Assembly: GCA_004321925.1 (NCBI GenBank)
Contig: SCQH01000064.1
Location: 1-63,949 of the forward strand
DNA: 63,949 bases
Source: Nitrospirota bacterium
Lineage (GTDB): Bacteria; Nitrospirota; Thermodesulfovibrionia; Thermodesulfovibrionales; UBA6898
Reading direction: 5' to 3'
Shown here: positions 45,428-47,666 of the stretch, piece by piece
Position numbering within the stretch: position 1 is the stretch's first letter
Layout: the number at the start of each line of letters is the position of its first letter
Notes under the pieces: model-generated
Databases searched by the model: none
What the model was told of the DNA's origin: nothing
The model's input: the letters and a program-made list of their open reading frames with translations, nothing else
Position numbers and translations under genes: made by a program

Positions 45428-45835
45428 CTAGGGAGTCCCCTTCATATATAGGTCATAGAGTGCCTTGCCGATGAAAAAATCTCCCCAGCATATGCCGATA
45501 TCCGGCAGGGTTGACTTCAGCAGCATTGCCTGAAGCGGTATCGACTTTGCGGTCATCTCCGCAATGCTGAAATGGGCCATGAGGATCGTCCCGAAGATGA
45601 CAAGGAGTCCGTTGAGAAGATAGCCGAAGGGTGCGGTCCTCCGGGACATGAAAAGGGCGGTCACGACAAGGGCATCGATCGCCGGCAGGAGCGAGGCCAT
45701 GAATTTTGTCCCGTCGAAGAGGTAACTTCCCGGATGCAGTCTGTCGGCAACCATGAAATTATGGATACGGTAATGGAGCATCAGCCCCGACACCGCGAGC
45801 AGAAAAAGCGCTATTAACAACGTGCCCCGCTTCAT
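45428..45835 (-). CDS. four-helix membrane protein, unknown
   Basis: A 135-aa protein with about four hydrophobic segments (residues 5-22, 42-63, 70-92, 98-120). There are no recognised motifs; polar residues in or near helices include HYRIHNFM and HFSIAE. It lies one base after the stop of a 35-aa membrane microprotein and is probably translationally coupled to it. Last gene of the rhomboid/pseudo-receiver/microprotein operon. Confidence 0.65.
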   Translation of the reverse strand: MKRGTLLIALFLLAVSGLMLHYRIHNFMVADRLHPGSYLFDGTKFMASLLPAIDALVVTALFMSRRTAPFGYLLNGLLVIFGTILMAHFSIAEMTAKSIPLQAMLLKSTLPDIGICWGDFFIGKALYDLYMKGTP

Positions 45836-45836
45836 C

Positions 45837-45944
45837 TCACCGGAACGTGAAGGTCACGAGGTGACCGAGATAGAACGTCAGTCCGACGGCAAGGATATGG
45901 AGGAGCCACCACCCGGGCCGGTATCTCATGAAGTGTTTCAGCAT
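45837..45944 (-). CDS. membrane microprotein 2, RPGWW family (35 aa)
   Basis: A 35-aa frame, MLKHFMRY then RPGWWLLHILAVGLTFYLGH and a short end LVTFTFR. One helix is amphipathic to hydrophobic. It shares the spaced motif R-P-G-W-W-x-x-H-x-x-x-x-x-x-x-Y-x-L-G with the 37-aa protein encoded directly upstream. Its ATG is 1 base after that gene's stop, and its own stop is 1 base before the next ATG, so all are coupled. No function is known. Confidence 0.7.
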   Translation of the reverse strand: MLKHFMRYRPGWWLLHILAVGLTFYLGHLVTFTFR

Positions 45945-45945
45945 G

Positions 45946-46059
45946 CTAGCGCAGGAGAATGTTCCCCAGGATATAGACGAGGGCTATCCCGATCATATGG
46001 ACCACCCACCACCCGGGCCTTAAAAAACTGATCTTCCTCGAGAAACTTTCATGCTCCAT
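45946..46059 (-). CDS. membrane microprotein 1, RPGWW family (37 aa)
   Basis: A 37-aa frame, MEHESFSRKISFL then RPGWWVVHMIGIALVYILGN and ILLR. The SD is GGGAG, 6 bp before ATG. Paralogue of the 35-aa protein downstream: RPGWW, the His three residues on, then a Tyr-x-Leu-Gly seven residues later, all in the same order. The basic N-terminus and single helix suggest an inner-membrane protein with N-in topology. Too short for default gene callers. Confidence 0.7.
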   Translation of the reverse strand: MEHESFSRKISFLRPGWWVVHMIGIALVYILGNILLR

Positions 46060-46074
46060 GACTGCTCCCGCTTA

Positions 46075-47025
46075 TCAGGCCAAGGCCCCTTTTTTCGCCG
46101 CGATAAAGTTGTCGATCGCCTCACGGTAATAGTCCTGCACCTGCCTGACCTCCTGGGGGATCCTGCCGTCATAAAGCTTTTTGCCCTCTTTGATCTCGGC
46201 TGCAAAGGCAGCATAGAATTCGCCCGACCTGATCGCCGAATCGACCTTTGCCGTGTTGTAGAGGTAGATGTCGTTGACAATGGTGCGTGCGAGCCGCCGT
46301 GCCTTCTCGATCCTCTCATCGGGACCTTGCTGCTCAGCGGCCGGGGCAGGCCTTTTTATCTCTGCGACCGGCCTCGACACCGGCTCCTGTCTCGGAGGGA
46401 CCTTGGGCGCCGGCTCTTCGCTCTTCAGCGGGATGTCCTTCGGCTGGGGCTTCGGAGGCGGCTCAGCCGCTTTTTCCTCTTCAGGTATGCCGCGCAGCAC
46501 GTTGATCTTGCTGAGGAGGTGCACAGGCACGTCAAATTCTTCGATATAGTCATCAGCCCCGTAAAGGGAGGTCGGCTCGCGCCGGTATTTTGTCTTGTCA
46601 TGGATAGCGGGTATCAGGATGAACTTCATGTCCCGTGTCTCGACCCGGGACTTCAGTCTTTTGCAGACCTCGAAACCATAGATCTTCGGCAGGGCAACCT
46701 CGATGATGCCGAGGAAGGGGAATTCCTTGAGGGCCTTGACCATGAGATCGATCCCGTCGTTTGCGGTGATCACGCTAAACCCGGCCCCCGAAAGGAGCGA
46801 GACCATGGTCTGCAGTAGTGCCGGATTGGTATGGGCGACCAGCACGGTATTGCCGTTAAGGGACTTCGGGGCCTGCGCCTCAGGCCTCTTGACCACGAGG
46901 ACCGTGCTGCACTTCGGACACTTGAACTTTGACCCCTCAGGTGATAGCTTTGTTTCATCGACCTTCAGTTTGATCTTGCACTTGGGACACGTTACGACCA
47001 CTTCGAAAACCTCCTTGGCAGCCAA
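46075..47025 (-). CDS. zinc-ribbon protein with degenerate receiver domain
   Basis: A 316-aa protein. Residues 9-50 are an MJ0042-type zinc ribbon (CPKCKIKLKVDETKLSPEGS then CPKC). Residues about 62-185 fold like a response-regulator receiver (TVLVAHTNPALLQTMVSLLS, KIYGFEVCKRLKS) but lack the acidic pair. Glu replaces the phospho-accepting Asp (GIIEVALP), so it is a pseudo-receiver. A Pro-rich linker (about 195-235) leads to a helical end domain (LARTIVNDIYLYNTAKVDSA). Its stop lies 15 bp before microprotein 1. It overlaps the rhomboid gene start region upstream by 34 bp. Confidence 0.78.
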   Translation of the reverse strand: MAAKEVFEVVVTCPKCKIKLKVDETKLSPEGSKFKCPKCSTVLVVKRPEAQAPKSLNGNTVLVAHTNPALLQTMVSLLSGAGFSVITANDGIDLMVKALKEFPFLGIIEVALPKIYGFEVCKRLKSRVETRDMKFILIPAIHDKTKYRREPTSLYGADDYIEEFDVPVHLLSKINVLRGIPEEEKAAEPPPKPQPKDIPLKSEEPAPKVPPRQEPVSRPVAEIKRPAPAAEQQGPDERIEKARRLARTIVNDIYLYNTAKVDSAIRSGEFYAAFAAEIKEGKKLYDGRIPQEVRQVQDYYREAIDNFIAAKKGALA

Positions 47026-47666
47026 AGTTTAATTGTTATCAGCCCGGCAAAAAATCCTCCCACGTGGGCAAACCAGGCAACACCGCCCTGCTGCAACCCG
47101 CCCTGGGACAGCAAACTGCTTAAGAACTGTATAATAGCCCAAAATCCAATAACTATCAAGGCCGGAATTCTCACCACCTGAATAAAGAAGCCGAAAAATA
47201 GCAGCGTATGGACCCTCGCCGCGGGGAAGAGCAGCACATATGCACCGAGTATCCCGGAGATGGCGCCGCTGGCCCCGATCATGGGTATCTGGGAACCGGG
47301 CGATGAAAGGGCATGCGCATAGGCCGCAGCCATACCGCACACGAGATAGAAGAAGAGGAACCTGATATGGCCGAGGCTGTCCTCGATGTTGTCGCCGAAG
47401 ATCCAGAAATAGAGCATATTGCCGCCCAGGTGGAGCAGGCCGCCATGCATGAACATCGAAGTGAAGACCGTCAGGAACACCGGGATCGGCTGCGTCGATT
47501 CCAGGCTCAGCAGATTATAGGGGATGGCACCGAAAGAATAGGCAATATCGCGTCCTTCCTTCGGCGAGATGACCTGCAGGATATAGACGAGGATATTGAT
47601 CCCGATGATCACGACGGTAACAAAGGGGAAGGTCCTTGTGACATTATCATCTTTAAAGGGTATCAT
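46992..47666 (-). CDS. rhomboid family intramembrane serine protease
   Basis: A 224-aa protein with six predicted membrane helices. The catalytic Ser is in IGASGAISGILGAY and the catalytic His in HVGGFFAGL. The L1 loop has FTSMFMHGGLLHLGGNMLYF with the conserved H-x-x-x-x-N. Rhomboids cleave membrane proteins within or near the bilayer. Its place ahead of the pseudo-receiver and single-helix microproteins is suggestive but proves nothing. Confidence 0.92.
   Translation of the reverse strand: MIPFKDDNVTRTFPFVTVVIIGINILVYILQVISPKEGRDIAYSFGAIPYNLLSLESTQPIPVFLTVFTSMFMHGGLLHLGGNMLYFWIFGDNIEDSLGHIRFLFFYLVCGMAAAYAHALSSPGSQIPMIGASGAISGILGAYVLLFPAARVHTLLFFGFFIQVVRIPALIVIGFWAIIQFLSSLLSQGGLQQGGVAWFAHVGGFFAGLITIKLWLPRRFSKWS

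Follow-up and report, generated by a model that had tools for sequence, protein, structure and literature searches.

A 63,949-nucleotide stretch of DNA from a Nitrospirota bacterium, referred to below as the window, encodes on its minus strand a conserved block of three small membrane proteins, which we designate A, B and C. We think it probable, though well short of certain, that the three make up a small b-type cytochrome, split between chains, whose mode of action resembles that of cytochrome b559. There are no heme data, and the heme itself, the A–B dimer, the electron path and the link to quinones are inferred only. A b559-like heme site is the best explanation of what we observe in that gene order, geometry and topology all agree with it, and the histidines of A and B could bind something other than heme.

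A (45946–46059, minus strand; 37 aa, MEHESFSRKISFLRPGWWVVHMIGIALVYILGNILLR) and B (45837–45944, minus strand; 35 aa, MLKHFMRYRPGWWLLHILAVGLTFYLGHLVTFTFR) are single-helix membrane proteins, and C (45428–45835, minus strand; 135 aa) is a four-helix membrane protein with an L-H-x-R-I-H motif. The initial annotation had placed two frames of 37 and 35 codons, 1 base apart, at this position, and both are found there. Its reading of each frame as one hydrophobic helix and of the two as a paralogous pair is upheld, A and B being paralogs by profile comparison (hhalign probability 97.7). It had also set the pair between two neighbors, each joined by a 1-base gap. This is correct for B and C but not for the upstream gene (46075–47025, minus strand), which combines a zinc ribbon with a receiver-like domain (Pfam PF13717 and PF00072) and lies 15 bases from A. 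Furthermore, C is constant in relatives, whereas the zinc-ribbon gene is upstream of A in this genome only and was not seen beside A in the relatives listed. It was therefore rejected as a functional partner; it stands outside the conserved block, and the neighbor that matters is the downstream four-helix C. The zinc-ribbon protein has a proline-rich linker, and its gene adjoins a rhomboid gene (46992–47666, minus strand). Downstream of C in the window are apparent groES and groEL genes.

A first search with A gave strong matches in 14 of 101 relatives (E 2e-21 to 3e-7), and at each of these loci B follows about 100 bases on, and then C. A single base separates A from B at nine of the 14 loci, and the spacing is −4 to 10 bases at the others, while B and C are 1 to 9 bases apart at all but two. 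A clear A is found in 25 of 396 Nitrospirota genomes, invariably with B about 100 bases after it, and one further genome from the first search (G082) brings the searched Nitrospirota genomes with A and B to 26. C is present at every one of these loci but L124, where the search pattern missed it; L124 and L069 have identical A and B, and C of L069 has IIHYRVH in place of LHxRIH. For A, B and the tested part of C alike, pN is smaller than pS in all 91 pairs, with pS at 0.70–0.79, near saturation, and pN at 0.20–0.22 (pN/pS 0.32 for A, 0.25 for B and 0.27 for the part of C). A, B and C are under purifying selection, and this together with the conservation of the pair and of C rules out chance ORFs, as had been argued from the sequence alone. 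Frameshifted homologs or a lack of amino-acid conservation, either of which would have refuted the initial annotation, were sought in the homologous loci and not found. These data support two real paralogous micro-proteins whose amino-acid sequence is conserved; the initial annotation had proposed no mechanism for them. The suspicion that the family is undescribed is also borne out, in that Pfam, NCBIfam and PHROGs hold no model describing A, B or C.

Conservation is concentrated on a few positions. Among 31 diverse sequences of A, W17, W18, H21 and Y29 are unchanged and G32 is altered once. In the same number of diverse B sequences H16 and G27 are unchanged, and W13, L15, L26 and F32 are kept in at least 90%. 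The shared motif of the initial annotation therefore survives in part. Its Leu at +10 and Gly at +11 after the histidine hold for both frames, but the register of the tyrosine differs (Tyr at +8 in A; Phe at +8 and Tyr at +9 in B). Of the RPGWW signature and the residues that follow, W-W-x-x-H in A and the His and Gly in B are invariant or nearly so, whereas Arg and Pro vary. The tryptophans and histidine are W17-W18-x-x-H21 in A, near the N-terminal and putatively cytoplasmic end of the helix, and W12-W13-x-x-H16 in B. Each helix has one invariant histidine, alike in position in A and B, with Trp at −3 and −4 and Gly at +11. The codons of the two proposed heme ligands, His21 of A and His16 of B, lie at 45997–45999 and 45897–45899 (both minus strand). 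An invariant histidine in each of two co-occurring one-helix paralogs matches the need of a shared bis-histidine cofactor site.

C belongs to no known family by sequence search of Pfam, NCBIfam or the PDB, and neither A, B nor C has a Pfam match to the ferric reductase-type cytochrome b (PF01794). The AF2 model of C has four helices (mean pLDDT 91). Foldseek and VIA-align, run on the AF2 models of C and of a natural C–A fusion, matched nothing more specific than four-helix bundles of a generic kind, claudin/TARP folds among them (best Z 12.0 for C and 11.3 for the fusion; Foldseek E never below 0.1). On the evidence of these models, the fold of C neither assigns nor excludes a function. The Lys and Arg residues of C are found at the N-terminus and in the loop between helices 2 and 3, which by the positive-inside rule would place both termini of C in the cytoplasm. 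A, where fused, would therefore start in the cytoplasm, with the histidine at that end of its helix. B is built like A, and K3, R7 and R9 precede its helix.

The C profile, run once over GTDB genomes to gather the wider family, gave 60 loci, and three architectures can be told apart. In the first, mainly from Nitrospirota, A, B and C are separate genes. In the second, A is fused to the C-terminus of C (165–176 aa) and B comes next; B is present at 16 of these 17 loci and was not found at L100. The fused form occurs in Syntrophobacterales and other Deltaproteobacteria (Desulfobacterota), in Omnitrophota, and in MAGs labelled Lentisphaerae, Chloroflexi and Phycisphaerae. The fusion points to contact between A and C in the working protein, and to entry of A into the membrane from the side where C ends. 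No natural fusion of A to B was seen among the loci found with the C profile. In the third architecture C is alone, in Riflebacteria, Planctomycetota-type, Thermodesulfobacteriota and Desulfovibrio MAGs. At six of the eight most distant loci (L104, L105, L106, L110, L112 and L114), a flavocytochrome b with Ferric_reduct and FAD/NAD domains is the next gene, or the next but one, downstream of the lone C. With or without A and B, C would thus go with a membrane heme-b protein.

Further variants were seen in the scan. One Omnitrophota locus (L099:7886-8366) pairs C with a single A/B-like gene (MKATFRFLGWGWWVVHLIGIGLVFYLGHLVKF), for which a homodimer is conceivable, and another locus (L095:7462-8600) has a tandem pair of C–A fusion genes (170 aa each) and then a single B. 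The lone C and its Ferric_reduct and FAD/NAD neighbor may be the two subunits of a membrane oxidoreductase, NAD(P)H-linked and so far undescribed.

The lone C genes bear on a different account of A and B, namely that they contain no heme and stabilize C as accessory helices, in the manner of CydX or SdhF. Their histidines would then bond C or a C-bound quinone, and C would itself be redox-active through L-H-x-R-I-H. Consistent with this, H21, R23, H25, Y72 and M86 of C are unchanged in all 40 aligned sequences, including members without A and B, and there is precedent in SdhF, a 3-kDa single-helix subunit that blocks a quinone site (PMC7447783). However, an invariant histidine in both A and B, along with Trp at −3 and −4, exceeds what a packing helix needs, the histidine has been kept in two paralogs, and relatives of C that lack A and B adjoin a heme-b flavocytochrome instead. 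We regard accessory helices as unlikely, although they cannot be set aside.

In a split b-type cytochrome, the reading that we prefer, A and B would be parallel single-pass helices with the N-terminus in the cytoplasm. His21 of A and His16 of B would each supply one axial ligand to a single heme b near the cytoplasmic face, and C would hold this heme or carry the A–B pair. The L-H-x-R-I-H of C would lie at the opposite face as a possible quinol or second cofactor site. Such a unit would most likely take electrons from the quinol pool, or return them, as a general quinol-linked b-type cytochrome whose redox partners may differ by species and include molybdoenzymes, multiheme c cytochromes and rubrerythrin-type proteins. 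A ferrochelatase is encoded in the genome (E 4e-107).

The outer gene context varies between species, and neither the Nitrospirota loci nor those found with the C profile have a fixed outer partner. Multiheme c cytochromes, and ResB and cytochrome c assembly proteins, are encoded at Omnitrophota loci; together with the molybdoenzyme genes described next, such redox contexts count in favor of a split cytochrome. CopC/CopD-like genes, recognized by eye, lie near two loci. In genome G045 (L050:1289-2588) two adjacent Oxidored_molyb genes are directly upstream of A, and their products are a possible periplasmic electron partner. Rubrerythrin-like genes, named by eye and not by Pfam, come soon after C at six Nitrospirota loci (L060, L061, L064, L069, L072 and L073). 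Some of these also have a DUF255-type thioredoxin gene. The rubrerythrin-like genes, as judged by eye, suggest a link to defense against peroxide or stress.

This variable context includes genes that could point away from respiration, to a membrane module for heme delivery or disulfide reduction in the assembly of c-type cytochromes. Namely, ResB and a cytochrome c assembly protein are encoded directly upstream in Omnitrophota L103, and thioredoxin-like DUF255-type genes are found near several Nitrospirota loci (by eye). Most loci, however, have no assembly gene nearby, so it is not a constant neighbor, and the C of the window lacks a CXXC motif. A role in cytochrome assembly is, in our judgment, very unlikely.

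We return to the split-cytochrome reading and its likeness to b559. In a first Pfam scan, the sole match of the A of the window was a weak one to Cytochrom_B559 (PF00283; E 0.52; 10.2 bits, where the cut-off is 30). The B of the window did not match this model, and a search of the genome itself with PF00283 gave no match. The best of the diverse members reached E 0.0014 (A) and 0.016 (B) against it. When profiles of A and B made from Nitrospirota only were run against all of the PDB (E up to 10), they matched photosystem II chains only, and just one of these was not named b559 or PsbF. Against 177,635 PDB sequences, all 31 matches of a broader B profile were cytochrome b559 (best E 8e-4), counting one PsbF-like chain labelled otherwise, as were 13 of the 14 matches of a broader A profile (best E 0.018). 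In these PDB searches the histidine of A or B aligns on the heme-ligand histidine of b559, without gaps around the site. Profile–profile comparison by hhalign gave probabilities of 85.5% for B with PsbF, 85.2% for A with PsbF and 64.2% for A with PsbE, and 0.5% for the reversed B with PsbF. In those b559 profiles the PsbE sequences and some of the PsbF sequences were entered by hand, and the remaining rows of one profile are PDB segments.

Short membrane profiles are noisy, and the controls were sobering. The reversed B profile found no b559 in the PDB (best E 0.08; M2 and LH1 beta were among its matches), and in Pfam an unrelated formate dehydrogenase helix was matched by reversed B members at E 3e-4, a value no worse than those of the forward matches. 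The unrelated C profile gave unanimous, plainly spurious PDB matches to CD3 zeta (E 0.09). Unanimity alone therefore proves nothing, and a set of concordant matches counts once. With both tryptophans and the histidine masked, b559 still came first, but at an E of only 0.51. Reciprocal recognition failed as well, since a PsbF profile run through the genomes that carry A and B does not find them beyond noise; only two of its 39 matches were A/B (G024, E 1.46; G064, E 2.54). The evidence from sequence for a likeness to b559 is thus weak in absolute terms. Homology to b559 has not been proven, the reversed, masked, C-profile and reciprocal controls all limiting the claim, and we therefore base the statement that the proteins work like b559 on their anatomy and leave descent open. 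Least likely of all is a role without heme, in which A and B would make up a small channel or bind pigment, for example as a metal or proton path: channels and antenna proteins do occur among small one-helix His/Trp proteins, and the reversed control picked up M2 and LH1 beta, but two distinct paralogs in a fixed order with C, and the redox gene contexts, speak against it.

If heme binding holds, we know of no other such split b-type cytochrome outside oxygenic photosynthesis. Within the open-access literature searched, we came across no split two-helix b-type cytochrome other than that of photosystem II and nothing that treats b559 together with Nitrospirota, and the term 'cytochrome b559-like' appeared only in a study of how cytochrome b6 is assembled. 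With a stand-alone version in non-phototrophs, the b559 design could be studied without a photosystem, and the question of where b559 came from could be put to the test. True kinship of A and B with PsbE and PsbF is possible, although we hold this only as a doubtful conjecture. In that case b559 would descend from, or share an ancestor with, a split b-type cytochrome of bacteria with anaerobic respiration that worked with C and was later taken into photosystem II. The locus also shows that a conserved operon can have two of its three genes short enough to escape gene finders.

Cytochrome b559 is a heme-bridged heterodimer, while most mono-heme cytochromes are single chains, and its heme lies near the cytoplasmic side with one histidine from each subunit (PMC9214863). 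It is present in all oxygenic phototrophs and not in anoxygenic type II reaction centers, and its role is still unclear (PMC9214863). A and B resemble PsbE and PsbF in being two adjacent small genes that encode one helix each, with the N-terminus (predicted for A and B) in the cytoplasm and one histidine per subunit near the cytoplasmic side, at the N-terminal end of the helix. The surroundings of the histidine are also alike, with an aromatic residue at −4, mostly Ile or Val at +4 and Gly at +11. B of L094 and A of L083 and L087 also have the Arg that b559 carries at −5, beside the Trp. Unlike b559, A and B come from MAGs that are non-cyanobacterial by label and have no known photosystem (photosystem II genes were not searched for). 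They lack the Pro at +5, score below the Pfam cut-off and fail in the reverse search, and they have in C a partner that is absent from b559. The ferric reductase/NOX-type flavocytochrome b (PF01794 with FAD/NAD domains) that adjoins C at loci without A and B may stand in for them. It differs from A and B in having many helices, heme ligands within one chain and a flavin domain, and no sequence relation between them was seen. SdhF and CydX are like A and B in size (about 30–40 aa), in their one helix and in binding to a larger membrane protein. However, SdhF blocks a quinone site and has no reported role with heme (PMC7447783), whereas A and B are a paralogous pair with an invariant histidine in each.
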